Shown here in pieces: positions 5,267-25,028 of a stretch of 32,584 nt of DNA. Numbering within the stretch: the stretch's first letter is position 1; every line of letters starts with the position of its first letter. Below the pieces are notes generated by a model. It did no database searches, was not told the DNA's origin, and was given only the letters and a program-made list of their open reading frames with translations. This stretch comes from an uncultured Pseudomonadota bacterium (lineage in GTDB: Bacteria > Bdellovibrionota_B > Oligoflexia > Oligoflexales > CAIMVM01). The stretch covers positions 1 to 32,584 of the forward strand of contig CAIMVM010000019.1 of NCBI GenBank assembly GCA_903844895.1, given 5' to 3'. Made by a program: the position numbers and the translations under genes.

Positions 5267-5732
5267 GTTTGCACTCTTCCAATAGTTTGATTTGATGATA
5301 AACGATAACACTTGCAGCATTTGCCAGATTGAGAGATCTCACCCCAGAGTGATACATTGGGATTTGAAAACAACGGTCCTCATAGTCTTCCAAGAGTTGA
5401 TCGGGAAGTCCCTTGGTTTCTTGTCCAAAGATGAGGAGCTTTACGTCCTGAGTCATACCAAAACAGCTTCGATTTCCTTTTTTAGAGAAAAATGCGATCT
5501 CATGTCTTTGAAATCTGGCCAAGAGATCTTCCAACCGGTCGTGTATCTCAAGGTCTAAAAAAGGCCAATAGTCTAATCCTGCCCGACGAAGATTTTTATC
5601 AGAAGGGTCAAACCCAAAGGGCTTAATAAGATGAAGCCTGGACGCAGTTGCCGCAGCTAGCCTTCCGATATTCCCAGTGTTTTGGGGAATCTCAGGCTTA
5701 TACAAGCAGATTTCAGGATGGCCAGCACGCAC
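5250..5732 (-). CDS. trmL: tRNA (cytidine(34)-2'-O)-methyltransferase TrmL (SPOUT)
   Basis: 160 residues, the usual size for minimal SPOUT enzymes of the TrmL type, which 2'-O-methylate the wobble base of tRNA-Leu with S-adenosylmethionine. The three SPOUT motifs are present: PQNTGNIGRL (residues 16-25), IFGQETKGLP (101-110) and VRSLNLANAASV (131-142), the last two forming the trefoil knot that holds SAM. The start is GTG at 5732, overlapping the TAG of the upstream gene by one base (TAGTG), with AGGA 8 nt upstream. It is the middle gene of a three-gene coupled unit. Confidence 0.92.
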   Translation of the reverse strand: MRAGHPEICLYKPEIPQNTGNIGRLAAATASRLHLIKPFGFDPSDKNLRRAGLDYWPFLDLEIHDRLEDLLARFQRHEIAFFSKKGNRSCFGMTQDVKLLIFGQETKGLPDQLLEDYEDRCFQIPMYHSGVRSLNLANAASVIVYHQIKLLEECKHVHLP

Positions 5733-6442
5733 TACGGATTTCCTAGAAGTGCAGGACCCGTAAAGGCCTTATCCCCAAAGCGGGAAAAAGCCCTGCGAAC
5801 CTGCAGAAAACACGTTAAATTCACGAAAAAATGAATCACAATCACCAGCAGCAAGTTGCCTGTCTGTTCAAAAATGGTAGAAAAAGCCGCTCCCAAAGCT
5901 ATGGACTGCAGACTCCAAGCAGAAAAAATTCCATGGGGGCCCGCGTGAATCACCACATAAGCTGTGACAGCTAAAGGTATCCCGATAAGCGGCTGCAAAG
6001 CCCCTCTGAAAAGAATTTCCTCCGATACTGCAGACATCAGGCTAAGGCCTACTGCCGACCATATAGAAATTCCGCCGAGAGTTCGCGCCATGAAGTTTTT
6101 AACGAGGCCAATGGAAGCAAAGATGCGATCGAGTGGCAATACAATCATGGAGATAGCACTGGTGGCCAAAAGAACAACAAGTCCAATACGCGGGTAAAGG
6201 GCTTCAGGGCTAGGCAAGGCATTGAGCCAATTTAAAAAACCAAATCCAAACAGGTTTTCTCGACCAATTTCAGAAAACTTCAGCTGCGTTGTATAATCGG
6301 GTTCGGAAAATCTCATGATGGACAAACCGACAAGGCCCATAACGGCATACATCAGCCAGGATGCTCTTATAATATGACGGGATACCGTTTTTTTAGCATG
6401 TTGCATGAAATGTCCTTCAATTAAGCACTCCTTCTTTACCAT
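5732..6442 (-). CDS. CPBP-family intramembrane glutamic protease
   Basis: A 236-residue multi-pass membrane protein with the CPBP (Abi) signature: EEILFR (Glu141, Glu142, Arg146), a YxxxH motif ending at His166 and HFFVN (His204, Asn208). These residues form the catalytic site of intramembrane glutamic proteases such as Rce1. Hydrophobic segments lie near residues 29-43, 84-103, 124-138, 152-166 and 196-210. ATG 6442 has AGGGGG five bases upstream; a second ATG at 6406 (MQHAKK) has GAAGGA six bases upstream and is also possible. First gene of the unit with trmL and hisC; the functional link is not obvious. Family members process prenylated proteins, peptides or membrane regulators; the substrate here is unknown. 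Confidence 0.88.
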   Translation of the reverse strand: MVKKECLIEGHFMQHAKKTVSRHIIRASWLMYAVMGLVGLSIMRFSEPDYTTQLKFSEIGRENLFGFGFLNWLNALPSPEALYPRIGLVVLLATSAISMIVLPLDRIFASIGLVKNFMARTLGGISIWSAVGLSLMSAVSEEILFRGALQPLIGIPLAVTAYVVIHAGPHGIFSAWSLQSIALGAAFSTIFEQTGNLLLVIVIHFFVNLTCFLQVRRAFSRFGDKAFTGPALLGNP

Positions 6443-6533
6443 AAATTCCCCCTTTAGGTCGCCAAAAATTTTGCTTCTTTCCCGCGCTTTAAGATTGAGT
6501 CATGAAGAGCTTTCAAGCGCCGTAGGAGAAAAC

Positions 6534-7256
6534 GTGCAGCCGCTAAAAATCGAGCTTTCATGGGTTTTTCAAGGATTTGCAAAGATCTCATTGGGAATTG
6601 TCTTTCAGGCTACAGAAGTATTGGCAGGTTTAAGCGCCAGAGGGCCGGCTAACTTTGAACAAGCCAAAACCTATCTCAATAGAGCCCTCAATAAAGCGCC
6701 GGAGTCGCCAAAAACTTGGTACTGTGGCTGCACCTTGCAAGGCCATAAAGTCCCTAAATGCGATACGGGCATCAACTCAAAAAAACCGCTGACGTTAGAG
6801 TGGGACCATGTAGTACCAGCAGCGCTTTTCCCAAAACCAGATTCTTGCCTACATATTGACGGATCTTCTAGGATGTGTGCTCGAAAAAGAAGCCAAGTTT
6901 TTCGCTATGCAGAAGCCGATCTCGTGAACTTGGTGCCGGCTGAGTCCCAAGTCAATCAGCTCAAAAGTTCCAAATCTCCAGGACTTGACGAAACCACCTT
7001 TAAGGCGCGCTGTGGATTTGAGGTGGGAGTCACGCGTTTCAATCCTCCCCTTCAAAAAAGAGGCGATGTAGCTCGCATTTGGTTTCATATGAATAAAAAA
7101 CACTTTGACGGTAAGCTCATCAATCTAGGTCTCTCTGCACTTCTCTTTAAATGGAGCCTAGAAGATCCTATCTCAGAAGAAGAAACAAAAAGAGCTAAAG
7201 ACCTTGCAAAACTCGGCTCCCCCCATCTTTATGTTCCTTTGCAAGATTTCAAATAG
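6534..7256 (+). CDS. EndA-type endonuclease I (HNH/beta-beta-alpha metal), probably secreted
   Basis: 240 residues. The core matches the endonuclease I family of E. coli EndA: WYCGC (62-66), EWDHVVPA (89-96, catalytic His92), a Cys pair around SRMCAR, and DLVNLVPAESQVN (119-131) with the Mg-binding Asn. Upstream of WYCGC, a NFEQAKTYL helix matches the start of mature EndA. These enzymes cut double-stranded DNA in the periplasm or outside the cell. Start is GTG 6534 because AGGAG stands exactly five bases before it; an in-frame ATG at 6405 would overlap the divergent CPBP gene and has no comparable site. The N-terminus is only moderately hydrophobic, so the export signal is weak and the start remains open. 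Confidence 0.83.
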   Translation: MQPLKIELSWVFQGFAKISLGIVFQATEVLAGLSARGPANFEQAKTYLNRALNKAPESPKTWYCGCTLQGHKVPKCDTGINSKKPLTLEWDHVVPAALFPKPDSCLHIDGSSRMCARKRSQVFRYAEADLVNLVPAESQVNQLKSSKSPGLDETTFKARCGFEVGVTRFNPPLQKRGDVARIWFHMNKKHFDGKLINLGLSALLFKWSLEDPISEEETKRAKDLAKLGSPHLYVPLQDFK

Positions 7257-7262
7257 ACTCTT

Positions 7263-7304
7263 ATCTGCCATCTGCCATCTGCCATCTGCCATCTGCCGTC
7301 TGCC
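7263..7304. repeat. Heptanucleotide tandem repeat, six units
   Basis: Five perfect ATCTGCC units followed by one GTCTGCC unit, with a further partial match on the right. It begins seven bases after the endonuclease stop codon and lies in non-coding DNA. The unit length is not a multiple of three and the copies are nearly identical, so the copy number probably varies by slippage. Confidence 0.97.
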
Positions 7305-7415
7305 ATAGCGCATCAATAGCGATCATTTTTTTTGGGCTGTTGAATTGCAGGTGCGCGCATGATTGCTAAAAACTGGACCCAGATTGAGCTAAGCAGCCGC
7401 GAGCGCACTGAGGAT

Positions 7416-7444
7416 TTGACCTCTCACACAAGACCAGCTAAAAT
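7416..7444 (+). promoter_or_regulatory. Sigma-70-type promoter for the 7479 lipoprotein gene
   Basis: TTGACC at 7416-7421 and TAAAAT at 7439-7444 with a 17-base spacer. A start near 7451 would leave a leader of about 28 nt that contains TAGGAG (7463-7468) ahead of the ATG. Both boxes are close to consensus. Confidence 0.7.
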
Positions 7445-7478
7445 CAAGCATATCCCTGAATTTTAGGAGTGGGTTTTG

Positions 7479-8240
7479 ATGCGAATTGGACTTCTTACTG
7501 CGATCACATTTGTCATGTTTTCTGCGATTGCCTGCAAACACGTAAATCAAGATCCTTCCAGGAGCAAGATAATATTTGGTGAAACTGACTTTGTAAAAGT
7601 AGACTCGATGGGTTCAAGCATTCCAGCAAACTATAGAAATCTAATCCATGCCATCGGTTATTTAGATTCCGGCTGCACAGTGAGCCATATTGGCAACGGC
7701 CTAGTGCTTACAGCTGCCCACTGTTTGTCTAACGATGAACTATTTCCAGACAATCCCGAGCAATGTCTACGCGGTCGAAGCATCCAGTTTGGTATTTTCA
7801 AAGATGGTGTTAAAGGTCCAAAAGCAACCTGCATTAAGTTCCTCTATGGGGAACGAAATATCAACAGAGATGTGGCACTGCTTTATGTGGAAAATTGGCC
7901 AAATGATAAGATAGATGTGGAGCTTGAAAATAAACCTGCTCCCGACACCACAATCACGCTTTTTAGCCACCCCGATGGGAGGCCTCTCGAGTGGTCTAAA
8001 GATTGTTCGTTGATACCGGTCAAATACTGCTCTTTCAAAGATGCTTTTGCCTTTATGTGCGACTCTGAGCCTGGGTCAAGCGGCTCTCTTCTTCTGTCAG
8101 CCAATACAGCGACTCCCAAAGCCCTTGGGGTCCTTAGAGGGCCAAGTGATGAAGGTGACAAAAACTGTGCCTCGAGAATCACTGCGAATCAGGCTTCGGA
8201 TAAGTTCAAATTTTATCTAAAAAAATATGGTGTCCTGTAA
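7479..8240 (+). CDS. Trypsin-like (S1) serine protease lipoprotein
   Basis: 253 residues. The N-terminus MRIGLLTAITFVMFSAIAC is a lipoprotein signal ending in a lipobox (AIAC, lipidated Cys19). The S1 triad is complete: LTAAHC (His81), RDVALL (Asp131) and GSSGS (Ser201). Cys pairs near His81 and around 184-194 suggest disulfides. It probably sits on the outer membrane facing the periplasm or the surface. ATG 7479 has TAGGAG upstream; the TTG one codon earlier is not needed. It has its own promoter and converges on another trypsin-like lipoprotein (8342-9907). Substrate unknown. Confidence 0.88.
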   Translation: MRIGLLTAITFVMFSAIACKHVNQDPSRSKIIFGETDFVKVDSMGSSIPANYRNLIHAIGYLDSGCTVSHIGNGLVLTAAHCLSNDELFPDNPEQCLRGRSIQFGIFKDGVKGPKATCIKFLYGERNINRDVALLYVENWPNDKIDVELENKPAPDTTITLFSHPDGRPLEWSKDCSLIPVKYCSFKDAFAFMCDSEPGSSGSLLLSANTATPKALGVLRGPSDEGDKNCASRITANQASDKFKFYLKKYGVL

Positions 8241-8341: not shown

Positions 8342-9907
8342 CTAACAGCCTGGTGTGCTTCCGCCATAATCTAATGTTTGGGATGCATCAGCTGAAGAGC
8401 GGCGCGTGTTATTGTAAGTTGTTGGCCTCTCCGAGGGGCTGCTTGGCGGAGCATTTGGGATCGCAACGCCACTATTGGATGTTGGTGACGGTGTGTCTAC
8501 TGGCCTAGTGTTTGATGCAGTCGTAGAAGAATCTCGAGCGCTCCACTCTGCTTGACTCAAAACATCCCCTTTAGGCAAACTCAACTCGCTGGCCTTTGAC
8601 TCCCCAGTACTAGGAGTGGCTGATCCCGAGGAAGTGTTTTGACCGTCAACTCTAGAAATAACAGCCACTGGAGTTCCGTCTAAAAATAGCATGGATCCGC
8701 TGACCCCATTGTCGAGACTGGCCATAGAGTTGTCTATGTATCCCAGAATCCCATAGGGTCTCCAAATAAAGGGGATAGATCCCTGAAAGTCTTTTAAATT
8801 AGCCAATTTATACTTCGGTCCACTTGGTCCCATATAGTTAGCACCCAGACTTAGTTGGCCTTTTTGGAGATTTTGTCTTTGAGATTGCCAGTAAGCGACT
8901 TGTCTTCCATAAGACGCAGCATAGTCGTCAATGGATTTTTGAATGAGCGCTAATTTCTGAGGCTCAGATTTCCCTAGGAATCCATTAAATATACTTTTTG
9001 CAAAGAGGTCCTGAGACTGAGGCGAACTTAAGAAGGCCTTTGCGCCCGCAAGAGCTTCTGCCTTGCAGAGTGTCGGCGCGGTGTCAAATTTTATAGCAGT
9101 AGGATTGGCACAGTCGTAGACAGTAGACAAGTAACTGCCAATTTCATAGTCGCGCGTTAAAAAATACTTTTTCCTAATATCATTCATCCAATTGGAATCT
9201 GAAGCAGCCATAAAGTTAGAAGCGATGTTTCCTGAATTTTTAATGCTAAGTAACACATTTTCGCTCCCCCGTCTGGGCGTGGCGCTAAAGCTAACCAAAT
9301 CTCCAAACATAAAACATCCCACTTTTGCATTGATCTCAGTGGGGGCAATTGTGCCCCACCCGCAAAGCTTGCCTGCGTAGCTCCCAAGTTCCTGCTCGAT
9401 GGATCGATTTAGCTCCGCGTTGCCAATCTTGTCTCGAAAAACCATCGATTCAAAGGGTCTAAATATCAAACCACTGTTTTCTAAGCGTCCTTTTAATTTG
9501 CTTTGGCTAAAGCCGTCGAGAATTCGATTACTGGCGTCTAAATCTATGGACTCAATCTCTAAATCTCTGTAACCGTCTTCACCACTAACGGAAAGTTTGT
9601 AAGGTTCCTTGGTATAAGAACTCACACAGTGCCTAGCTGTAAAGACTTCTATACTAGTAGCTCCTGCTTGAGAAGAAAAAACGATTGAAGCGGCGCAGTT
9701 TTTAACCTTGCCTGACTCAGTGCTAGAAAAGAAGCCGCCAGCAATAAAAGTTGAAGATACACTTTCATTGCCGCCTGTGATGGAATCCAGTCCAAAGGTG
9801 GATATTTTTCGCGACTCGACGAAAGACTTCACGCATGCAGCTGGCTCTGGGCCGCGTTTGCAACTTGAAAGCAAAATGATAAATAGATTCAAATAAGCCA
9901 TTTTCAT
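8342..9907 (-). CDS. Large trypsin-like serine protease lipoprotein with Ser/Thr/Pro-rich tail
   Basis: 521 residues. The signal peptide ends in LLSSC (lipid Cys16). A chymotrypsin-like fold is suggested by TARHC (His93), CGWGTIAP near 182-189 and DNGVSGSMLFLDG (nucleophile Ser403), about 310 residues apart. That is far longer than the usual ~150, so a large insertion (about 205-395) separates the two barrels. The catalytic Asp is not obvious; IDLDASNR near 121-128 is a candidate. Residues about 425-521 are rich in Ser, Thr, Pro and Asn with no hydrophobic stretch, like a surface stalk, and the protein ends in Cys. ATG 9907 has AGAGGG six bases upstream. Divergent from the 10055 lipoprotein gene. 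Activity is likely but unproven. Confidence 0.8.
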   Translation of the reverse strand: MKMAYLNLFIILLSSCKRGPEPAACVKSFVESRKISTFGLDSITGGNESVSSTFIAGGFFSSTESGKVKNCAASIVFSSQAGATSIEVFTARHCVSSYTKEPYKLSVSGEDGYRDLEIESIDLDASNRILDGFSQSKLKGRLENSGLIFRPFESMVFRDKIGNAELNRSIEQELGSYAGKLCGWGTIAPTEINAKVGCFMFGDLVSFSATPRRGSENVLLSIKNSGNIASNFMAASDSNWMNDIRKKYFLTRDYEIGSYLSTVYDCANPTAIKFDTAPTLCKAEALAGAKAFLSSPQSQDLFAKSIFNGFLGKSEPQKLALIQKSIDDYAASYGRQVAYWQSQRQNLQKGQLSLGANYMGPSGPKYKLANLKDFQGSIPFIWRPYGILGYIDNSMASLDNGVSGSMLFLDGTPVAVISRVDGQNTSSGSATPSTGESKASELSLPKGDVLSQAEWSARDSSTTASNTRPVDTPSPTSNSGVAIPNAPPSSPSERPTTYNNTRRSSADASQTLDYGGSTPGC

Positions 9908-14595: not shown

Positions 14596-16641
14596 TCAGC
14601 GGGAGGAGCTGGCTTTTGGGGAAGCCTCTTTTTTGAGGAGAAGGAACGTCAAGTCATCTTCAAGTTCGAGGTTTTTTCGGTAAGCTCTCGAGTTGGCAAT
14701 GATTTGTGAGCCGATTTGGCTTAAGAGTCCACGTTTTCCTTTTCGAAGCTCTTGTTTGATACGACCTAACCACTGGGAAGCTGCCGCTCCTGGTGGAACG
14801 ATGCCGTCAGTGTAAAGGACAATCATGGTTTCAAGGGGGTCAAGGGTTGTGGTTTTAGCGGTCCACTTGGGATTGTCAGATTCTGAGCCTGGTCGGGACC
14901 CGTCCGTAGAATGATAGCGAAATTGGGACTCACTTCCCGTTAAAATTCCAGGATGGCCAGCCGTCGTGTAGTAAAGTGATCCCGTAGACTGATCAAAGAT
15001 CATGGCCGCCATGCTACAGCCAAGGTTGCTTCTGAGGCCGATAAGACCCTCATGAACCCTCTGAGGAGCCAGTGCTAAGTAGCTCTCAAAATCCTCATGG
15101 GCTCTTGCGACTCCTCTCGTCCAGAGGCTCCAGTGACTGGCAATATTGGAGGTCATCATGGCAGCACCCATGCCGTGTCCAGTCACATCGACCATCGCCG
15201 CGACAAGGACCGTCTTCGTGGAAGAGATTTCAATTTCTCTTACATCGTACCAATCTCCTGCAAGCTTGGAGGCGGGTCGGTAGACCCCATGCCAGGTCCA
15301 GCTGCCACTTTTAGCTTTGGACTCCGGAAGACTTGAGAACTGTATGGCTTTAGAGATTTCAATTTCCTTATCGAGTTCTGCTTTTTGACGCACGATCTTA
15401 GATACCTTTTGAATTGTGTTGTAAATACTGCCGATATCAATGAACGCAATAAAGACCAAACCTGGGACGAGGATTTGGTTGCGCCAGTCAAAAAAACTTT
15501 TAAGAGTTGTCGAGTCTTGACCCAAATATTGTTCAATATTACTACTTAAAAATAAGCCAAGGAGGATAAAAACTGCGACGAGCTCGAGTTTTTTTTCAGG
15601 TTTAAAACGTAGGAATAGGGTTGCAGTTGTACCCATGCCTAAAATAGCAAGCAGCCCGTCCCAAACGAGATCAGATTGTTGCAACCCAAGTCCGATCTTG
15701 GAACTGAGAAAGCCCAGTCCTGCAGCTACCAAAATGGAAAGAATCTGAACCTTGCGCTTGATCTCTATATTGGCGAGGGCTAGCACTACAAAGACAATTG
15801 CTACAGCCCCCATTCCATGCAGTGGAAAAATCAAAGATTCTAAGAAATTTCTATTGAGAGCATCAGTATCCCAAGCCAAATATGCCAAGCAGCGTAGAGC
15901 TCGCAATGCAGCAAATAGCGACAGGAGACCAGCAACCAAGGCGTGATCTAAAATGAGAGCCATAGCTGCGAATAGGAGTGGTACAACGACCTCGAGCATG
16001 CGGTTCATGTGGGCGGAAAAACGCTGTTTGGCACTGATGTCGAGAAAGTCTCGGTCATACCTTGGATCCACCAAGGCTGGTGCTACCAGTGCCGGCCCAA
16101 ACCATTTGGCTTCTGGGGAAATAAAAAGCTGTAGTTCTAAGGATCCCATGTTCACGCTTTGCGCGCTGAGGGGAATTCTGATGTCGGCAAAATTCCCAAG
16201 TTGAATCTTTCCGTCAGCAGGAAAAAGAATCTGGGTTGCTTGATGAGCCATAAAAGGGAAAATTAAAGTCGCCCTTTCGCTGGGGATTGTTTGAAACCAA
16301 GCCTTTTGCTCCTCAGTAAGGTTGGTACCGATTCTCACCCGATTAGCTGGCTGGGGAAGACTTTTCAAGATCGCAGGAAGTGTCGTGGCGCCTGGAAAAA
16401 CGATGTCGATGGGATTCGCGTTTAGTTGTGAGCAAGTACCTGCCGCGTCACAAGAGAAAAAAATCGCAGACCATTTCGGGATCTCTAAAATTTGTTTCTT
16501 GGAGATCAGATCGTCGCGAATTCTACCGACATTGAGCTCGCGACTTTGAATGTAGGAAACTCCGATAAAAGACAGCAAGCAAAAGATCAAGGCAATGAGA
16601 CTTGTCTCTTTATTGTATTTGCGTTCTTTGGACTTTTTCAT
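14596..16641 (-). CDS. Membrane SpoIIE-type PP2C serine phosphatase with 7TM-like sensor
   Basis: 681 residues. After a signal-anchor (about 14-31) comes an extracytoplasmic region to about residue 210, then roughly seven or eight hydrophobic segments to about 405, a short coiled-coil linker (406-435) and a SpoIIE domain. Phosphatase motifs are AGDWYD (461-466), DVTGHGMGAAM (485-495), a TTAGHPG motif, LYTDGI and EDDLTFLLL at the end, which carry the metal-binding Asp residues. The plan matches RsbU/7TMR-DISM-type regulators that dephosphorylate an anti-anti-sigma or similar protein in response to an envelope signal. Last gene of a five-gene operon, 13 nt after the PilT-family gene. No STAS or HATPase partner is in the window. 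Confidence 0.9.
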   Translation of the reverse strand: MKKSKERKYNKETSLIALIFCLLSFIGVSYIQSRELNVGRIRDDLISKKQILEIPKWSAIFFSCDAAGTCSQLNANPIDIVFPGATTLPAILKSLPQPANRVRIGTNLTEEQKAWFQTIPSERATLIFPFMAHQATQILFPADGKIQLGNFADIRIPLSAQSVNMGSLELQLFISPEAKWFGPALVAPALVDPRYDRDFLDISAKQRFSAHMNRMLEVVVPLLFAAMALILDHALVAGLLSLFAALRALRCLAYLAWDTDALNRNFLESLIFPLHGMGAVAIVFVVLALANIEIKRKVQILSILVAAGLGFLSSKIGLGLQQSDLVWDGLLAILGMGTTATLFLRFKPEKKLELVAVFILLGLFLSSNIEQYLGQDSTTLKSFFDWRNQILVPGLVFIAFIDIGSIYNTIQKVSKIVRQKAELDKEIEISKAIQFSSLPESKAKSGSWTWHGVYRPASKLAGDWYDVREIEISSTKTVLVAAMVDVTGHGMGAAMMTSNIASHWSLWTRGVARAHEDFESYLALAPQRVHEGLIGLRSNLGCSMAAMIFDQSTGSLYYTTAGHPGILTGSESQFRYHSTDGSRPGSESDNPKWTAKTTTLDPLETMIVLYTDGIVPPGAAASQWLGRIKQELRKGKRGLLSQIGSQIIANSRAYRKNLELEDDLTFLLLKKEASPKASSSR

Positions 16642-16654
16642 CGTGTGAGACTTC

Positions 16655-18841
16655 CTAAGAAGCTAAGAGTTTCCCTTCTTTATCCACAAAGGCCATAGGG
16701 ATATTCCATCTTCTAGCAAGTTCCACGAGAGACTTCTTATCAATACATTTAAGATAGGCGTCCATAGGTTCTATGAGCCCGTCTTTTGCGAGGGTTAGGA
16801 GGCATTCGTTAAGTAACTGATTTCCTGCAGCTTTTTGGGTTATCATGGTGTTCTGAATGAGATGGTTTTTGCCTTCCCGAATATTGCTTGAGACAGCGTC
16901 ATCTACTACTAAGATCTCATGGGCCGCAACCCGTCCTCCACCAATTTTTTTGATGAGTGTTTGAGCCACCACTCCTTTTAGACTTGAAGCCAGCATGGTT
17001 CTAATTTGAGACTGCTGGTTTGAGGGGAATTGATCAATAATACGGTCAACTGTTGAAATTGCCGTATTCGTATGGAGAGTGCCAAATACCAAGTGGCCAG
17101 TCTCAGCGGTTTCAATCGCAATTGCAATAGTTTCCAAATCTCTGAGCTCGCCAATGAGAATGACATCAGGGTCTTCTCGAAGTGCTGCTTTAAGTGCTCG
17201 TTTGAAGCTAGTCGTGTGTTTTCCCACTTCCCTTTGATTGACTAGGCACCTTTGTTGGGGGTGAACAAATTCAACGGGATCCTCAATTGTTAAAATGTGC
17301 TCATGACGTTCTTTGTTGATTTTGTCAATCATGGCAGCGAGAGTTGTAGATTTTCCAGAACCTGTGGGACCTGTTACTAGAACGAGACCTTTGGTAAGGG
17401 CACAGAAATCTGTTATAGCCTTGGGGAGATTTAACTGCTCTGCGGTTAAGATCTTAGCGGGAATTTGGCGAAGCACGGCGCCTACTCCATAGCCATCTCG
17501 AAACATATTTACCCTAAAACGCCCGACACCAGGCAGTTCGTAGGCAAAGTCTGTGTCATTTGCGCTTGAAAACTCTTCGCGATTTTTAGGTGGCATAATC
17601 GGAAGGAGATAGCGCTCCATGGTCGCAGCATCTAGATGAGGCATGTCCTGGCGCTCAACTTCACCGTCGACGCGGAGCACGGGAGGCTGGGTTAAAGTTA
17701 AGTGCAAGTCAGAAGCTTTTTTTGCCATCATATGCCTTAGAAGGCTATCGATAGGAAAATCTGAAGTTCTAACCACAACTTTGTCAGGGTCATTGGCATC
17801 AAAAATAATGGGTTTATTTTCTTGGGCAGCCGAGGGCATTGCAGGGGCTGACGACTCATTATAAGCAATAGCCTGTGGTGAATGAGCTACGCGATTAGCT
17901 GATGTGGGCGATGCAGACATGGGGGCGGCAGAGCTTGGAAACGTAGGTGACGGCTTATTTTCTGAGGTTGCGACCTTAGGTTCACTTACCTTTAACGGCG
18001 GGGAGTTGTCCTCTGGCGGCAATGTGAATTGCATGTTCGTGTTTGCTACTTGAGATTTTAGGGGGACAGGAGCCTCGGGCTGCAAAGAGCCGGATTGTGG
18101 GAATGGCTTAGGTATTGGTGCTGCCAGACCTTGGCTAAGGGGGGTTGGGTTTATCGGGCCTGGGGTAGGGGCATGTGCGGGTGACAATCCAGTAGAGGGG
18201 GAAGGATTGGCGCCAGGATTCAACAATGACGTGAAGCCTTTGAGTCCAAGGCCCTCCCCATCAGGATCGCTGTTTGCAAGGCCTTCGGGAGCTTCCCCGG
18301 GCATAAAAGCCACTTGCGACATGCCCGTAGGATTAAAGGATCCAAAGGCGGAATCTCGTTTAGAGCCAACGCTTTTAAGATCTACAAGCTCTCCAGGCTT
18401 AAACGGCAATGGTGGCGCATCAGGATAGGGGCTCTTTCCAGGATCTGAAATTTTGGACGGCTCTTCGGAAATAGAAAATCGACTTTCGTTTTCATATTCC
18501 GTCTGCCACTTTGTTTTGAGATCTGAAAACTTTTGATCTCCGGACCCCGGAAAGCAAATGGCTAGCTGCCACCCTTTTCCATGCTTCCAACCGAGGACAT
18601 TCAAGTTTCCTAAGCCTGCGATATTTAAAATGCCATGGGTCGGAGCTCCCGCATCGAGAGTATCCTTGGAAGTTGCAAATAGAAACCCGAAGACATCCTC
18701 TAAAAAACTCTTCGTAGTAAGCGCACCAAAGTTTTTTGAGCCTGTGGGAGTATCTGCTATGGGCTCCTTACCTTCTTTGAGGTAGACGCAGCTCACCTTT
18801 TGGGCGATGGATTCTTTAAGAAGGGATTTGAATTGTTCCAT
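16655..18841 (-). CDS. pilT: PilT-family ATPase with N-terminal extension
   Basis: 728 residues, about twice the usual PilT length. The C-terminal ~360 residues are a complete PilT-type secretion ATPase: KKASDLHLT and PGVGRFRVN in the PAS-like N-domain, Walker A GPTGSGKST (491-499), Asp box ILTIEDPVEF, Walker B DPDVILIGELRD (557-568), His box GHLVFGTLHTNTA (582-594) and a SNIREGKNH motif like the PilT AIRNLIRE segment. Such ATPases power type IV pilus retraction. The first ~115 residues look like a second, degenerate copy of the PilT N-domain (AQKVSCVYL; AGLGNLNV), followed by about 230 residues rich in Pro, Ser and Ala. The fourth gene of the operon, 22 nt after the protease gene. Family certain; coupling to pili or to another surface machine is open. 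Confidence 0.92.
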   Translation of the reverse strand: MEQFKSLLKESIAQKVSCVYLKEGKEPIADTPTGSKNFGALTTKSFLEDVFGFLFATSKDTLDAGAPTHGILNIAGLGNLNVLGWKHGKGWQLAICFPGSGDQKFSDLKTKWQTEYENESRFSISEEPSKISDPGKSPYPDAPPLPFKPGELVDLKSVGSKRDSAFGSFNPTGMSQVAFMPGEAPEGLANSDPDGEGLGLKGFTSLLNPGANPSPSTGLSPAHAPTPGPINPTPLSQGLAAPIPKPFPQSGSLQPEAPVPLKSQVANTNMQFTLPPEDNSPPLKVSEPKVATSENKPSPTFPSSAAPMSASPTSANRVAHSPQAIAYNESSAPAMPSAAQENKPIIFDANDPDKVVVRTSDFPIDSLLRHMMAKKASDLHLTLTQPPVLRVDGEVERQDMPHLDAATMERYLLPIMPPKNREEFSSANDTDFAYELPGVGRFRVNMFRDGYGVGAVLRQIPAKILTAEQLNLPKAITDFCALTKGLVLVTGPTGSGKSTTLAAMIDKINKERHEHILTIEDPVEFVHPQQRCLVNQREVGKHTTSFKRALKAALREDPDVILIGELRDLETIAIAIETAETGHLVFGTLHTNTAISTVDRIIDQFPSNQQSQIRTMLASSLKGVVAQTLIKKIGGGRVAAHEILVVDDAVSSNIREGKNHLIQNTMITQKAAGNQLLNECLLTLAKDGLIEPMDAYLKCIDKKSLVELARRWNIPMAFVDKEGKLLAS

Positions 18842-18863
18842 GTTGATCCTCCAAATCAGTAGG

Positions 18864-19925
18864 CTATGTATTTTCGAAGTTTAAAGATTTAGTCCCAGAG
18901 CTTTTTCGAATTCTTGCAAAGTGCACCCAAAGTGGCAATCCTAGGAATCCTAAGGCTAGCATCGCGGAGGCACTACCGAAGCCACTTGACGAAGAGAGGC
19001 CTGCCTGAAGGGAACAGCCGATCCCTTTAACTTTGTTCTTCTTGACTTGTCCTGAATCGGCAACACTTTGGAGTTCGTATGGAATTTGATTTAACAAGGC
19101 CTCTGCAAAGGCTGCCATGGTAGCCGTGTTGTCTTTGCGGGAAATGCCCTTGCCGTTTTCAACTATCGTGATCCCCCCCCAATTGATGCCAATGACTTGG
19201 GACGTATCAGCATCAACCAAAGCAGAACCACTAGAGCCCAGATCCAAATCACAGGTGTGTCGCAAAGACACCTGAAGAACCGCGTCCAATTTGATGTCAT
19301 CAGGACTAAAATTTCCTAAAATTTTGCAATCATTGATGGTAAGAGCCGCTACCGGTAAGGAAACATCACCTTCAGCATCTTTAGCGAACCCGCCCACTCG
19401 CGCTGGATGGTGAAAGATGAGAGCCTTGCGTCCTAAAGGATCCCCTTTAAAGAAAGACAAAGATTGCGCATCTGAAGGCGGTTTTTCTTGTAGTTGAAAA
19501 ACCCCGACATCAATTCTTGGATCCGTGCGCAAGCTGCCCGGAAGACATTTGACAAAGGGAGCTTTGCGGCTATTCTCACTAGTAAAATCAAAAAAGACGC
19601 GCGTGTCTTTACAAGCCTCCGGGATGAGAGTGTCTAACTTGGAGCCATCAGCGCCTTCTTGGGCGAAGCAGTGGTGGTTGGTGACGACATGAAGCACGCC
19701 GTCCTTATTTTTAATCATGCTCCCTGTACAGAATATGGATGAACCATTTGTTTTTCGCGTTGCGATGACGACCGTTGCTTTCCTCACGTCAGGGATATCA
19801 TTTTTTTCAGAAACAGTGGCGATGTCATTCTCTCCCAAAATATAAGCGACTCTGGAAGTTTGAGATTTTGGTCTACAATTCCAGGTAAGAGAAACGATCA
19901 AGGCAAGCCCAACTATCCTATTCAT
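18864..19925 (-). CDS. Trypsin-like serine protease with MYXO-CTERM-like C-terminal anchor
   Basis: 353 residues. The N-terminal signal MNRIVGLALIVSLTWNC has a poor lipobox (TWNC), so lipidation is uncertain. The S1 triad is visible: TNHHC (His85), RIDVGV (Asp139) and DLGSSGSALV (Ser232). The tail has GIGCS (Cys304), a Ser/Gly-rich stretch, a hydrophobic helix (about 319-335) and a basic end ARIRK. That order, Cys then helix then basic residues, is that of MYXO-CTERM-like sorting tails. ATG 19925 lies inside the end of the upstream gene (8-nt overlap) with AAGGAA seven bases upstream. Third gene of the operon; it could mature or regulate the TPR proteins, but that is a guess. Confidence 0.86.
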   Translation of the reverse strand: MNRIVGLALIVSLTWNCRPKSQTSRVAYILGENDIATVSEKNDIPDVRKATVVIATRKTNGSSIFCTGSMIKNKDGVLHVVTNHHCFAQEGADGSKLDTLIPEACKDTRVFFDFTSENSRKAPFVKCLPGSLRTDPRIDVGVFQLQEKPPSDAQSLSFFKGDPLGRKALIFHHPARVGGFAKDAEGDVSLPVAALTINDCKILGNFSPDDIKLDAVLQVSLRHTCDLDLGSSGSALVDADTSQVIGINWGGITIVENGKGISRKDNTATMAAFAEALLNQIPYELQSVADSGQVKKNKVKGIGCSLQAGLSSSSGFGSASAMLALGFLGLPLWVHFARIRKSSGTKSLNFENT

Positions 19926-20883
19926 CAACGGTTCCTTTTTTTTCCATATCAACTACGACTTGTCTAAAGAACGAATCCGCTTTTTGACGGATGAGCGAGC
20001 TGGGATTCTGCGCGTAAAATCTTACTTTTCCAAGAGCTTCCCGGGCGCTTTTGAGGTCATTGCTTGACTGGATATGCCAAAGAGCTAAATGGTAGTAAGC
20101 TACGGGACTCTTACTTTGGATGGCGCGGTCTAAATAGGTCTTTGAAGTGTTAAAGTCTTTTGCCCGTCTAGCTGCAATACTAGCTCCTAAAATTGCTTGC
20201 AAGCATTCGTTACAGCGCTCTGAGGTTTGTTCAAAGATAGAAACAGCGCGCTTCGAATTTCCAGTTTCTAAAAGGAGGTGGCCAAGGTTTAGTCCAGCCG
20301 CAATCTCCTTGGTATCGCCACTAAAAGCTGACTCAAACAGTTTTTTTGCTTGTCTAAGATCTTGTGGGTCGTTGCCCCGCTTCATCAATGTCAAGCCGGA
20401 AATATTCAGTGCGACCGTGTTATTAGGGTATTTTTCGATGAGCAGCTTCGCATAGAAAGCCGCTTTTTCATGGCGCCCCTGCAGATAGAGACTGGTAGCA
20501 AGTCCCTCGAGGCCTTCTTTAGATGCCGGATTTCTAGATAGGAGATCTCTTGCAGATTCTTCTGACTTCTCATTTTTGCCAGCAACCATCTCTGCCTCAA
20601 CTCGGTCGCGTGACACTTCCGACGCAGTCGAACGTTTGAGCCATTCTGCATCCGAGACACCAGCATTCATAACAGCACCCTGGTCGCCAGATTTAAGAAC
20701 CAGAGCATTTTCCACTTCGTTAGAAGAAGAGCCATTTTGGTGTACACAAGCAGAAATGGCGAGAACCATCAAAGCCAAACAACCGTTGCGGGTAGGCAAG
20801 CTTCTACGGGGGGACTTATGCCGCCAAAAAAGGAACTTGTCATCGGCTGATTTGAAAAGATAGTGTTGATTAGTTTCTTGCAT
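19918..20883 (-). CDS. TPR-repeat lipoprotein
   Basis: About 321 residues from the ATG at 20883, which overlaps the upstream TAA as TAATG and has AGGAG eight bases before it. The hydrophobic segment ends in LAISACVHQ, a good lipobox, but the n-region before it is unusually long (about 37 residues) and basic. Downstream are roughly five TPR-like helix pairs (for example ASKEGLEGLATSLYLQGRHEKAA, NTVALNISGLTLMKRG, IAAGLNLGHLLLETGNSKRAV). TPR lipoproteins usually scaffold envelope complexes at the outer-membrane inner face. A 987-aa TPR protein is encoded immediately upstream. Confidence 0.85.
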   Translation of the reverse strand: MQETNQHYLFKSADDKFLFWRHKSPRRSLPTRNGCLALMVLAISACVHQNGSSSNEVENALVLKSGDQGAVMNAGVSDAEWLKRSTASEVSRDRVEAEMVAGKNEKSEESARDLLSRNPASKEGLEGLATSLYLQGRHEKAAFYAKLLIEKYPNNTVALNISGLTLMKRGNDPQDLRQAKKLFESAFSGDTKEIAAGLNLGHLLLETGNSKRAVSIFEQTSERCNECLQAILGASIAARRAKDFNTSKTYLDRAIQSKSPVAYYHLALWHIQSSNDLKSAREALGKVRFYAQNPSSLIRQKADSFFRQVVVDMEKKGTVDE

Positions 20884-23846
20884 TATTTCGCTCCTTTCGT
20901 GATCTGAAGTTGGACGTAGCCTTTTCCTTCCGAGCCCGTAACTGGCTCGAAGTTCCAATCATTGGAGGTGCGCCAAATCACATCAAGTGCTGTGGTGGGA
21001 TCCGACTCTCCGTCGATCACAATGTCGTAAGCTTTTTTTTCAGAACTAATCATAAGAGCAGAAATACGGTCCATAGCTGACTTTTTGTAGGCGTTATAGG
21101 GCACCGTTTCCTCATCTCCCAGAGTTGGATTGATATTTATGTCATTCAGGACTGGTAAAAATTCGGCACCCGTGTTTGAAATTGTAATTAGAGCCAATGC
21201 ACAGTATGCCGTTGGTCCTATGTCGCAGACTGTTTTCATTCTGCGTTCATATGCAGCGAATTCGTCTATCTTGGCTTTCAAAGCGGCCTTAGGATCTTTC
21301 AAAGTAATGTTATTGACAGTGCTCATCATGGCATCAATGGGCACAGCCTTAGCGAGGGTTAAGCGCATCTGAGCGGATTTTTGAACGAAGAGGTAGTCGT
21401 CTCCAGAGAGGGCGGATACTTGGGATTCAAGCTTAGAAACTCCCGCCAGATCGTTTTTTTCACTCAGGTACTTGGCTTTAGCGCCAAAAGCATCTGCCTT
21501 TTGCCAATTATTTGGATTTTTTCTCAGAACTGTTTCGGCTGCTGCAAATGCTGAAGAAGACTTACCATAATGTTCTTCCAGATATAGAATCTGGTAGCTA
21601 GAGTCTAAATCCTCTTGTTTTGAGAGTCGACCCGTTTGTTGGTGTTCCTTAATCCTTGCTATAGCGAGTCCATAGCGTTCGAGACCAATTAAGAGCTGAA
21701 TGAGGCGACGTCTGATAGCTAGCCCCTTATCGGATTTGCCATCTCGGGACAGATAGTTTCCTGAAAAAATAAGGGAGTAGGGCTCTTGAGCCGCATCTTC
21801 TGACCACTGAAACGCCGTGGCATTAGCAATTAGCCACTCATTAGAGGTGGGAAATCTTTTGGTCATATCATGGGCTCTGACGATGGCGTCGACATAGCGA
21901 CTTGTCTTATGTAGGGACAAACTTAAGAGCCAAAGCGCGTGGTCTTCGTTGGGCTTGGCAAAAGCGTCGACGTATTCGGTTAATTTTAGAATAGCTTTTT
22001 GAAAGTTTGAGGTTGCATAGGCCGCAGAGCCGCTTTCGTAAAGTGCTAATGCTAAAAGATCATTAGAAGACAGATTTTTCCCATTAGCTTTAGGATCTAG
22101 TCGGGCTTTAACAAGAAGCCGAGCAAGTCCTTCGAGGTCTTCCCAATTTTTTGCATTTTGATAGGTTGTTAGCATCGTCCATGCGGCATTGTTGGCATGA
22201 ATCCCACTAGTGTACTTTTGAAGCAGCTGATTCCATAATTTAAAAGCGACGAGGGTTTCATTTTGAGCCATGGCGATCAACCCGCTGTGGGCGGCAAGAC
22301 CCCAGTTTTCAGGCTGTTGGGTAAGCGCATCCCCATAATATTTACGGAGCAGGCCGAGTTCAGAAGGAACTTTAGCTTTATTCTTAAACCAAGGAGCCTC
22401 TTCGCTCCAACCAGCAACTTTGCTTTGAGATTTAATAGCAAGACCATAGAGCCGTATCTTGTTTTCTTTCTTAGTAGCTATATCGCCAGCCGCATTTTGT
22501 CTAGTCCCCGCATCTTTGTTTTGACCCATTCCTTGGTAAAGTACTGCTGTGAGCTCCAGTATTTCTGCTTTGTGATCTGGACTCGGTTTCGTTTTTGCAA
22601 GATAGCGGTCGGCAAGAGGAATTACCAACCTTCCTGCTTCGGGTTGCTTCTTAGCTTTCATGGCTTCGACTTTGATAAGGGAGAGATACTCTTGAGTCAG
22701 GCTAGGAGCTCTTTCTGGCGTTTTTTCCGTATCTATTTGTCTTGATATTTCAGCTTCTAATGCTACAAATTGATTTGATTTCATCCAAGATGCTTTATGC
22801 CAAGATAAAAGTCTTATGCGCCAGGGAGTTTTTGAGGGTAGTGAGTCTTCAAGGTTGCGGGCTATTTTAATCGCATCAGCAATTTGTCCCTTTGAATAGA
22901 GCTCAAGAGAGCGTCTTTCATGGATAGCCGCAATTGTGTCTGTATTCTTTATAGCAGCCGCGTCAAAGGGAAGGCTAAACCAACTGTCTTTGGGGTCTGC
23001 AGTACGCCATATCCAAAGAACTTCGTTGATCGTTTTCTCACGAATAGACTTTGCAACTCCCGCAAGATTTTTTACAGCATCATTGAGATACTTTTTGTAC
23101 AAAGGATCTGGATTTCTCAACTTTGAGTTGTCATGAATACCAGCTAATGCTCTAGCAGTGACAAGATTTAACTGAAGTTGAAACGCCAAATTGGATTTCT
23201 GATACACATCTTTTTTGGATTCGATAAATTCTTTCAGTCTTTTGGCATCTCGAACATAGACATCGCTTCGAAGCCGATCATATGTGACCACAGCCATAGA
23301 TCTATAGCGGATAGAGTTAGTTGCTTTTTTATGGGCTGACAATTCCAGGAAAGTCTGTTTGGAGATGCTGGAATCTGGGCTGTTTGCCGCAATCAAGAAT
23401 TTAAATTGACTGAGACGCTCTGGGTTGTTCTGGTAGGCTGTCGCAAGAAGGTAGAGGATTTTTTCTTTCTTCATTTTAAGTTGGGTAAGTTCAGCATCTT
23501 GGGCTGCCGTCACTACGGCTCCAGGGATTTTTTTAAATTTAACGTCTTCGATGGCTTCCCCAGCCCGTATGATCTTTACAAGAATATCTTCTAACTCAGC
23601 AGGGGTCCTTTTCTTGTCTTCATCGGCGTCGTTTTCCGATGCTTTGACTTTATCTAAGAGGTCTCCGATATCAGGGGGAGAGGTTTCTTCTACTAAGCTC
23701 GAGTTTCCATCGCGAAGGCCTAGAAGAAACAAGTTTTGATCCCTCGTAAAACCAGGAAGCGATAAAATGGGAGTTTCGGCGTGTACCGCTTGTGAACTCG
23801 TCAAAAAAAGATAAGTGGAGAATGCTAAAAGGATACGTATGACCAT
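20883..23846 (-). CDS. Large exported TPR-rich protein, first gene of the operon
   Basis: 987 residues. The N-terminus MVIRILLAFSTYLFLTSSQ ends in VHA-ETP, a good signal peptidase I site. The rest is almost wholly helical with many TPR-like pairs (for example ALALYESGSAAYATSNFQKAI, ALWLLSLSLHKTSRYVDAI, GLAIRRRLIQLLIGLERYGLA). A short region near the end has two Cys (CDIGPTAYC). It is presumably a periplasmic scaffold. ATG 23846 has AGGTGG five bases upstream and directly precedes the signal peptide; an upstream in-frame start at 23876 would spoil the signal. I recognise no specific family. Size and pairing with a TPR lipoprotein recall the GltD/GltE pair of the Myxococcus gliding machine, an analogy only. 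Confidence 0.85.
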   Translation of the reverse strand: MVIRILLAFSTYLFLTSSQAVHAETPILSLPGFTRDQNLFLLGLRDGNSSLVEETSPPDIGDLLDKVKASENDADEDKKRTPAELEDILVKIIRAGEAIEDVKFKKIPGAVVTAAQDAELTQLKMKKEKILYLLATAYQNNPERLSQFKFLIAANSPDSSISKQTFLELSAHKKATNSIRYRSMAVVTYDRLRSDVYVRDAKRLKEFIESKKDVYQKSNLAFQLQLNLVTARALAGIHDNSKLRNPDPLYKKYLNDAVKNLAGVAKSIREKTINEVLWIWRTADPKDSWFSLPFDAAAIKNTDTIAAIHERRSLELYSKGQIADAIKIARNLEDSLPSKTPWRIRLLSWHKASWMKSNQFVALEAEISRQIDTEKTPERAPSLTQEYLSLIKVEAMKAKKQPEAGRLVIPLADRYLAKTKPSPDHKAEILELTAVLYQGMGQNKDAGTRQNAAGDIATKKENKIRLYGLAIKSQSKVAGWSEEAPWFKNKAKVPSELGLLRKYYGDALTQQPENWGLAAHSGLIAMAQNETLVAFKLWNQLLQKYTSGIHANNAAWTMLTTYQNAKNWEDLEGLARLLVKARLDPKANGKNLSSNDLLALALYESGSAAYATSNFQKAILKLTEYVDAFAKPNEDHALWLLSLSLHKTSRYVDAIVRAHDMTKRFPTSNEWLIANATAFQWSEDAAQEPYSLIFSGNYLSRDGKSDKGLAIRRRLIQLLIGLERYGLAIARIKEHQQTGRLSKQEDLDSSYQILYLEEHYGKSSSAFAAAETVLRKNPNNWQKADAFGAKAKYLSEKNDLAGVSKLESQVSALSGDDYLFVQKSAQMRLTLAKAVPIDAMMSTVNNITLKDPKAALKAKIDEFAAYERRMKTVCDIGPTAYCALALITISNTGAEFLPVLNDININPTLGDEETVPYNAYKKSAMDRISALMISSEKKAYDIVIDGESDPTTALDVIWRTSNDWNFEPVTGSEGKGYVQLQITKGAK

Positions 23847-24095: not shown

Positions 24096-25028
24096 ATGAA
24101 GCGAAATATTTGGTGTGCAATGGGAATCGTAACGGGGTTAGTAGGTTGTGGAAATATGCAACCTGAGGATTATTTAAGAGCTGATTTACTTAAATTGGGA
24201 TTTATTCCCTATGAGGCGCCTATTGCGGAAGCGGGAACTGGAACTCTGGTTGGGGGTTCCGCAAAAGCAATGAATATCTATGCAGGTCCTCAGCGGTGTT
24301 TTCCGGATATTGATCCTCAGACGCAAAAGAAAAATGACATTCGGGCCTTAGCGGCTATCGATCTTCCTTCTAGAACTTCATCTTATAGAGTCTCAGGAAA
24401 TGCTCGAGTTGGTCTGGTAAGTGCGCTTGGAAAAGGAAATTCGCCTGTTAAAGCTGGTGTTCAATTTGATAAAGCACAAACCATTGAATTCAGTTATTCT
24501 GCCCCCAAACGTGAATATTTGGACGCCGTAAAACTGATTTCATTTTATCGAAACTCTATGCCAGAAAACTATATGGATCCTAAGACTGGCACTATTCAAA
24601 ATGCTTGTAAAGATGCACTCGACAAATTAGGTTATATTAGAGAAGCCCTAGTGGTTGATGGCATGTCGTTTAAGTTTTTTTCGGCAAGCGGTGGCGCGAT
24701 TGATTTGACTGTAGTCGACCCTAATACTCTTTTAGAATTTGGTTTTGGTACCACTTGGCAAGTTTCCCAAAAGTACGAGCTAAAAGTTTCTACAACAAAG
24801 TATATTGGTTACAGAATGGGGCAGCTGAAGCGTGAAAATGATGGTGTGTCATTTTGCACAGCTAATACTGTAAAAAATGATAGGTACGAACTTAAGTGCG
24901 AATCTCTAGATCCAGATCCAGTAGTAAGAGCGTTAGGCTTTGCGGGAGCCACAAAGGTACAAGGCTCGAAGCCTTCTTTCCTAAATGGACTCAACAAATT
25001 GGTACCTTTGCAAGCTGTTTATAAATAG
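24096..25028 (+). CDS. Lipoprotein of unknown function
   Basis: 310 residues with a signal ending in LVGCG (lipid Cys18) and GAGGAG seven bases before the ATG. The rest looks like a globular, beta-rich domain with five further Cys (CFPD near 69, NACKD, SFCTAN, LKCES), possibly disulfide-bonded. I recognise no family. It is divergent from the TPR operon across 249 bases, so the two may share regulation, and a hairpin follows it. Confidence 0.8.
   Translation: MKRNIWCAMGIVTGLVGCGNMQPEDYLRADLLKLGFIPYEAPIAEAGTGTLVGGSAKAMNIYAGPQRCFPDIDPQTQKKNDIRALAAIDLPSRTSSYRVSGNARVGLVSALGKGNSPVKAGVQFDKAQTIEFSYSAPKREYLDAVKLISFYRNSMPENYMDPKTGTIQNACKDALDKLGYIREALVVDGMSFKFFSASGGAIDLTVVDPNTLLEFGFGTTWQVSQKYELKVSTTKYIGYRMGQLKRENDGVSFCTANTVKNDRYELKCESLDPDPVVRALGFAGATKVQGSKPSFLNGLNKLVPLQAVYK

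Follow-up and report, generated by a model that had tools for sequence, protein, structure and literature searches.

A run of five closely packed genes in a member of the Oligoflexales, encoding two TPR proteins, an anchored protease, a PilT-type ATPase and a SpoIIE phosphatase, raises the question of whether its products form a single machine, as a sequence-only reading had suggested, or whether a smaller conserved unit stands here beside looser companions. The window, i.e., the whole stretch of 32,584 nucleotides that was analysed, is contig C19 of genome G000, an assembly of 4.2 Mb in 372 contigs that is 95.6% complete. Its nearest named relatives are Oligoflexales/Pseudobacteriovorax MAGs, and the Oligoflexales are kin of gliding and predatory bacteria. 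The comparison set comprised 58 genomes, at class and phylum level alike, with 43 in the order of the window.

The five-gene run and its surroundings

All five ORFs were confirmed on the minus strand between positions 23846 and 14596. The genes had been described as overlapping or less than 25 bases apart, and indeed neighbours overlap or sit at most 22 bases from each other. The stop codon of TPR1 shares bases with the ATG of TPR2 within TAATG (20885-20881), the end of TPR2 runs into the PROT ORF, and the protease-PilT and PilT-SpoIIE gaps are 22 and 13 bases, respectively. The starts of TPR2 and PROT were corrected to the ATG codons at 20883 and 19925; the listed ORFs, which begin with TTG, are longer.

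20883..23846, minus strand: TPR1, predicted periplasmic TPR solenoid with signal peptide, 987 aa, GltD-like (profile comparison, AF2)
19918..20883, minus strand: TPR2, predicted TPR lipoprotein with invariant lipobox Cys, GltE-like (profile comparison)
18864..19925, minus strand: PROT, serine protease of trypsin type; lipobox Cys at the N-terminus, and at the C-terminus a Cys, a TM helix and a basic tail (Trypsin_2, alignment)
18924..18980, minus strand: C-terminal hydrophobic helix of PROT, between Cys308 and RIRKS, in a MYXO-CTERM-like layout
16655..18841, minus strand: PILT3, PilT-family ATPase, 728 aa, third Oligoflexales PilT clade (TIGR01420, tree, motifs)
18506..18841, minus strand: N0 domain of PILT3, residues 1-112, putative second, degenerate copy of the N-terminal domain of PilT (hhalign, AF2, Foldseek)
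17753..18505, minus strand: PILT3 linker of low complexity, rich in proline (residues 113-363; sequence, alignment)
16745..17752, minus strand: PilT core of PILT3 with Walker A, Asp box, Walker B, His box and IRE motif
14596..16641, minus strand: SPOIIE, N-terminal TM helix, extracytoplasmic domain of ~170 residues, several TM helices and SpoIIE/PPM phosphatase domain

The gene packing, together with a TPR1-TPR2-protease order that is kept in other families, is beyond chance. Promoter and terminator predictions within the operon did not exceed the shuffled background, so it is from the spacing alone that co-transcription is deduced. Neither Rfam nor tRNA features were found in the window.

Divergently from the operon, on the plus strand (24096-25028), lies a gene for a lipoprotein, part of which is gasdermin-like (NF051890, 2.5e-4; PADLOC bGSDM, 7e-5). 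All eight aligned members of its family match bGSDM, the best at 1.1e-8; a 63% copy is located on contig C153 of the same genome, and relatives occur in eight other genomes of the class. A gasdermin-like protein with a lipoprotein signal that adjoins a protease operon is unusual. The window also encodes a second trypsin-like lipoprotein protease (7476-8240, plus strand) and a further lipoprotein (8342-9907, minus strand), protease-like by eye and with no Pfam match. At 5732-6442 (minus strand) lies a gene for an intramembrane protease of the CPBP (Rce1-like) type; it carries EExxxR and HxxxN motifs and weakly matches myxosortase-type models. The HisC-TrmL-CPBP block of the window is syntenic with family f8.

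A GltD/GltE-type pair and its protease

Domain searches returned a weak TPR_16 match for TPR1 and clear TPRs for TPR2. Relatives recognised by the TPR1 profile are present in 35 of the 43 genomes of the order, while a narrower TPR1 profile scan gave six loci only, all of Oligoflexales type. The profile also weakly picks up a TPR protein of ~1050 aa from a Glt-type gliding operon, the partners of which are an OMP_myx_plus barrel, GltC (NF033756, 6e-41), GltE (NF033758, 2e-13) and CglF (1e-7). In hhalign comparisons, TPR1 matched the GltD-like family at 2.4e-28, with 688 columns aligned (968 in global mode), and TPR2 the GltE-like family at 1.1e-27 over 280 columns; cross-controls with other TPR families gave 2e-9 to 3e-3, and those for the TPR1-GltD comparison 7e-8 to 3e-3. 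Because these full-length matches far exceed the TPR controls, TPR1 and TPR2 are considered colinear homologues of GltD and GltE, and what had been offered as an analogy to Myxococcus gliding proteins can be upheld as homology. The gene order is that of gltD and gltE in Myxococcus (MXAN_4870-4869; PMC3169522).

The pair is far from its relatives in sequence. TPR1 shows no significant blastp alignment with the GltD paralogues of its own genome, and the GltE model NF033758 weakly matches 18 of 22 members of the TPR2 family and misses the TPR2 of the window. Two further complete-looking Glt-type operons are encoded in this genome (contigs C247 and C73, loci L111 and L112), and the window pair can be regarded, on sequence grounds, as a third and very diverged GltD/GltE pair. 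With GltD/GltE (AgmU/AglT) of the Agl-Glt system it shares adjacency, equal order, the full-length colinear profile match and the combination of a periplasmic TPR solenoid with a TPR lipoprotein. It differs in an extra C-terminal cysteine pair of TPR1 (C874/C882), which is invariant in the family, present in one f13 relative inspected and absent from the GltD-like proteins inspected. The AF2 model of TPR1 is an all-helical solenoid, the pLDDT of which mostly exceeds 80 between residues ~310 and ~950, and its Foldseek matches are generic TPR solenoids, the CtpA-LbcA complex being one among many, with a low TM-score.

The genomic partners differ as well. GltC, OMP and CglF, which occur in the operons on C247 and C73, were found neither at the window locus nor at orthologous loci, and no AglRQS-like motor domain was detected among the scanned ORFs of the operon and its flanks. 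In place of the Glt partners seen in the OMP-GltC-GltD-GltE-CglF operons of the Oligoflexales, the window has the protease, and its relatives usually have in addition a gene termed here X. Comparisons of X with GltC, OMP, CglF and GltD led us to reject it as a Glt component. Operons of the Glt type (OMP-GltC-GltD-like-GltE, mostly with CglF) are widespread in the Oligoflexales (L078-L086, L090, L111, L112). Only in f5, flagellar-type MotA and MotB and a protein of ~620 aa, F8, adjoin TPR1 (L044-L048, L040; sequence inspection); F8, encoded upstream of TPR1, was likewise discarded as a Glt component after tests against GltC, OMP and GltD.

PROT matches Trypsin_2 (2.7e-10), and the closest solved sequence is Achromobacter protease I, at a weak E=0.0066. 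Cys17 of the lipobox, His85, Asp139 and Ser232 (within GSSGS) are invariant in 11 PROT homologues, and Cys308 is nearly so. Every homologue whose tail is unfused ends in a Cys, mostly as Cys-Gly, followed by a hydrophobic helix and in most cases by basic residues. The PROT tail fits the tripartite MYXO-CTERM layout of Cys, TM helix and basic residues as defined in PMC11980579 and resembles the ends of MYXO-CTERM and GlyGly-CTERM proteins such as the VesB protease; a T2SS was also found in this genome (C73). PROT differs from these proteins in bearing an N-terminal lipobox as well and in matching no CTERM model (five members, E<=1).

Wherever the contig is long enough, all main orthologues of TPR1 and TPR2 lie side by side on one strand. 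PROT follows them in 15 fetched loci, and X comes after PROT in 13 of these 15. The X gene, common to most relatives and absent at the window locus, encodes an undescribed periplasmic domain with a conserved ending such as YELIQRxYSxRQxGxGxVA and no Pfam match (examples are L031:5305-6246, L109:9800-10519 and the C-terminal half of the fused 6156-8180 ORF of L033). In f7 the X domain is fused to PROT after the C-terminal tail, whereas elsewhere X is a separate gene directly downstream; with the two fused in this way, the C-terminal helix of PROT would span the inner membrane, at any rate for a time. G016, G003, G008 and G012, in which PILT3 lies elsewhere or did not turn up in the vicinity, retain the TPR1-TPR2-PROT order. 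PROT was detected in 22 of the 35 TPR1-positive genomes and in one of the eight TPR1-negative ones (Fisher p=0.017, with phylogeny ignored). About one third of the TPR1-positive genomes, comprising most of f5 and all of g8 (f8) except G040, carry TPR1-TPR2 without PROT, and therefore the pair must have another role there. Family f13, from a different order of the class, has a TPR1 relative with a large lipoprotein subtilisin-like protease encoded directly after it (L072:4823-8848, L073:10753-14697, L089:7215-8541), so the association of a GltD-like protein with an anchored protease is seen again, this time with another protease fold. TPR1-TPR2-PROT is the conserved core of the five-gene run. 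It is probably a real functional unit, with the PilT and the phosphatase as looser companions.

The PilT-type ATPase and the phosphatase

PILT3 scores 446.3 bits against the PilT family model TIGR01420, above the curated cut-off of 319.1. Like PilT and PilU, it has a complete core with nucleotide-binding and catalytic boxes (Walker A at residue 491, Asp box at 516, Walker B at 557, His box at 583), and the position of the AIRNLIRE retraction motif reads AVSSNIRE, with I, R and E retained. It differs from them in lying outside pil operons and in an extra, degenerate N-domain that a 250-residue proline-rich linker connects to the core with all the catalytic boxes. This N0 domain (residues 1-112) matches the PilT N-domain at 7.1e-9 in hhalign (controls E>=0.05). 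Its AF2 model has a pLDDT of 89, and the best Foldseek matches are almost all of PilT, PilU, DotB and PilB/GspE type, with a TM of 0.72 to Thermus PilT2. Profile, structure model and Foldseek agree, and by these predictions N0 represents a diverged duplicate of the N-terminal domain of PilT itself.

Oligoflexales genomes encode up to three PilT types. The long PilTs are monophyletic in the tree (99/99) and sister (90/83) to the pilB-adjacent PilT, apart from the second short PilT, and thus form a clade separate from both. Two lengthened PilTs of f13 (569 and 620 aa; L098 on G048:C6 and L099 on G047:C164) are placed elsewhere in the tree, outside the PILT3 clade, so their extension appears to be independent. 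The other PilT of the genome under study (C225) is of the second short type. The notion that PILT3 might be the only PilT of an otherwise normal pilus system fails on this second protein and on the distinct clade of PILT3. The search for other pil genes also yielded PilM-N-O-P-Q-like genes at C361. PilB and PilC were not found in this incomplete assembly, in which only T2SS GspE/GspF-type homologues were detected; the ATPase at C73 was dismissed as PilB, and as evidence of type IV pili, since its T2SS neighbours mark it as GspE. In relatives pilB adjoins pilT; loss and an assembly gap are thus equally likely here. Gliding of Bdellovibrio requires neither PilT (PMC4237445), which argues against assuming a link between PilT and Glt.

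PILT3 lies less than 10 kb from TPR1 in 19 genomes of the families f1, f5, f7 and f8, and at ~13 kb in G017. The two genes diverge in f7 and g8 (f8), and PILT3 is downstream of TPR1 in f5, f8 (g14) and f1; in relatives PILT3 is often on the opposite strand. In three genomes of f10 (G016, G009) and f3 (G002) the two genes are unlinked. In the TPR1-negative genome G001 (f2), PROT is located immediately upstream of PILT3, in the order and strand of the window. METH, a methionine-synthase/MTHFR gene of the YitJ type, keeps its linkage to PILT3 also where TPR1 is absent or elsewhere (f10, f11), and M17 peptidase and HisC-TrmL-CPBP genes are common to the PILT3/TPR1 neighbourhood in several families. 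Since METH and such housekeeping genes accompany PILT3 and TPR1 or stand between them, the PILT3 linkage is partly plain synteny. METH (F4) itself was rejected as a system component, being a methionine-synthase/MTHFR-type enzyme.

SPOIIE matches the SpoIIE domain at 1.5e-16, and its metal-binding Asp motifs are present (GDWYD 462, DVTGHG 485, YTDG 610, EDDLT 661). A SpoIIE gene adjoins PILT3 in two genomes only, G000 and G028, and the architectures differ (7TM-like versus PAS-SpoIIE). The gene neighbourhoods therefore bear out part of the proposed association: TPR1-TPR2-PROT is conserved and PILT3 is a neighbour in four families, whereas the linkage of SpoIIE does not hold.

A proposed scaffold for an anchored protease

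Based on the observed homologies, gene order, conservation and intact catalytic motifs, we propose, at a probability of roughly 45%, that a Glt-derived TPR scaffold serves an envelope-anchored trypsin-like protease and that an accessory PilT and a phosphatase are co-expressed with it here. The GltD-like periplasmic solenoid and the GltE-like outer-membrane TPR lipoprotein would have been duplicated from the Glt core and would act as scaffold or adaptor for PROT, which is anchored to the envelope separately. The resulting complex may process or shed envelope or surface proteins. Its mode of action would be like that of NlpI-Prc and LbcA-CtpA, in which an outer-membrane TPR lipoprotein is likewise paired with a periplasmic protease; LbcA activates CtpA and sets a precedent for such pairing (PMC8764530, PMC11021448). 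The window locus differs from both in having two TPR proteins, which are Glt-related scaffolds, and a trypsin-like protease (S1 type, Trypsin_2) instead of a C-terminal processing protease. PILT3 would serve as an accessory ATPase of the retraction type for type IV pili, its regulatory N-domain being duplicated. Drawn into one transcription unit here with the membrane SpoIIE, which may exert phosphatase regulation, it would allow the output of scaffold and protease to be co-expressed with pilus dynamics. The presence of a TPR lipoprotein beside a protease could, on the other hand, be a coincidence.

How PILT3 came to lie here has a simpler explanation, in which the scaffold-protease operon and PILT3 are old neighbours merged by loss of intervening genes. 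This is a real possibility, if short of an even chance; it covers the PILT3 link alone and is compatible with the scaffold-protease core. The persistence of METH beside PILT3 in f10 and f11 and the shared M17 peptidase and HisC-TrmL-CPBP genes speak for it, but G001 keeps PROT and PILT3 in order and strand without the rest, the run in the window is codirectional with short gaps, and linkage has been kept across families despite a TPR1 identity of only ~25%. The same linkage in 19 genomes and G017, the PROT-PILT3 adjacency of G001 and the PilM-N-O-P-Q-like operon could also indicate a type IV pilus accessory, with PILT3 providing a special retraction mode and TPR1, TPR2 and PROT stabilising or processing the pilus or secretin at the outer membrane. 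TPR2 does have weak matches to PilW (1.1e-7) and Tgl (0.0024), yet the PilW score is not above generic TPR models, and with PILT3 and TPR1 unlinked in f10 and f3 and PilB and PilC not found in the incomplete assembly, we consider this unlikely.

A Glt-like module of surface adhesion or motility, in which TPR1 and TPR2 couple to a shared AglRQS-type motor, PROT frees adhesins and PILT3 is incidental, is doubtful, though it accords well with the full-length colinearity and like gene order of the two pairs and with the two additional OMP-GltC-GltD-GltE operons of this genome (one with CglF). Glt modules are known to be duplicated and redeployed, with four expanded core complexes in Bdellovibrio (PMC3169522), which favours such a module; the lack of GltC, OMP, CglF and AglRQS-like genes at the locus and its orthologues and the distance of TPR1 from the GltD paralogues tell against it. 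Least credible are the readings that join all five products. One trans-envelope machine powered by PILT3, for which the near-contiguous or overlapping run in this genome speaks, is improbable, and less likely than the scaffold-protease reading: G000 and G028 alone have SpoIIE beside PILT3, in unlike architectures, PILT3 is separable, and the run encodes no inner-membrane platform. It is equally hard to credit an ATP-driven machine of the Glt type, a hybrid between type IV pilus motor and gliding scaffold, with the duplicated N-domain of PILT3 powering or gating the GltD/GltE-like periplasmic scaffold and its surface protease under the control of the membrane SpoIIE phosphatase.

Glt core genes are present in many non-gliding bacteria as well. 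The preferred reading of a scaffold that serves a protease would link a GltD/GltE pair with an anchored protease in place of the gliding motor, and may thereby provide a testable role for a redeployed Glt scaffold. Concomitantly, an order-wide PilT clade with a duplicated N-domain would constitute a natural experiment on the control of retraction by this mobile domain.
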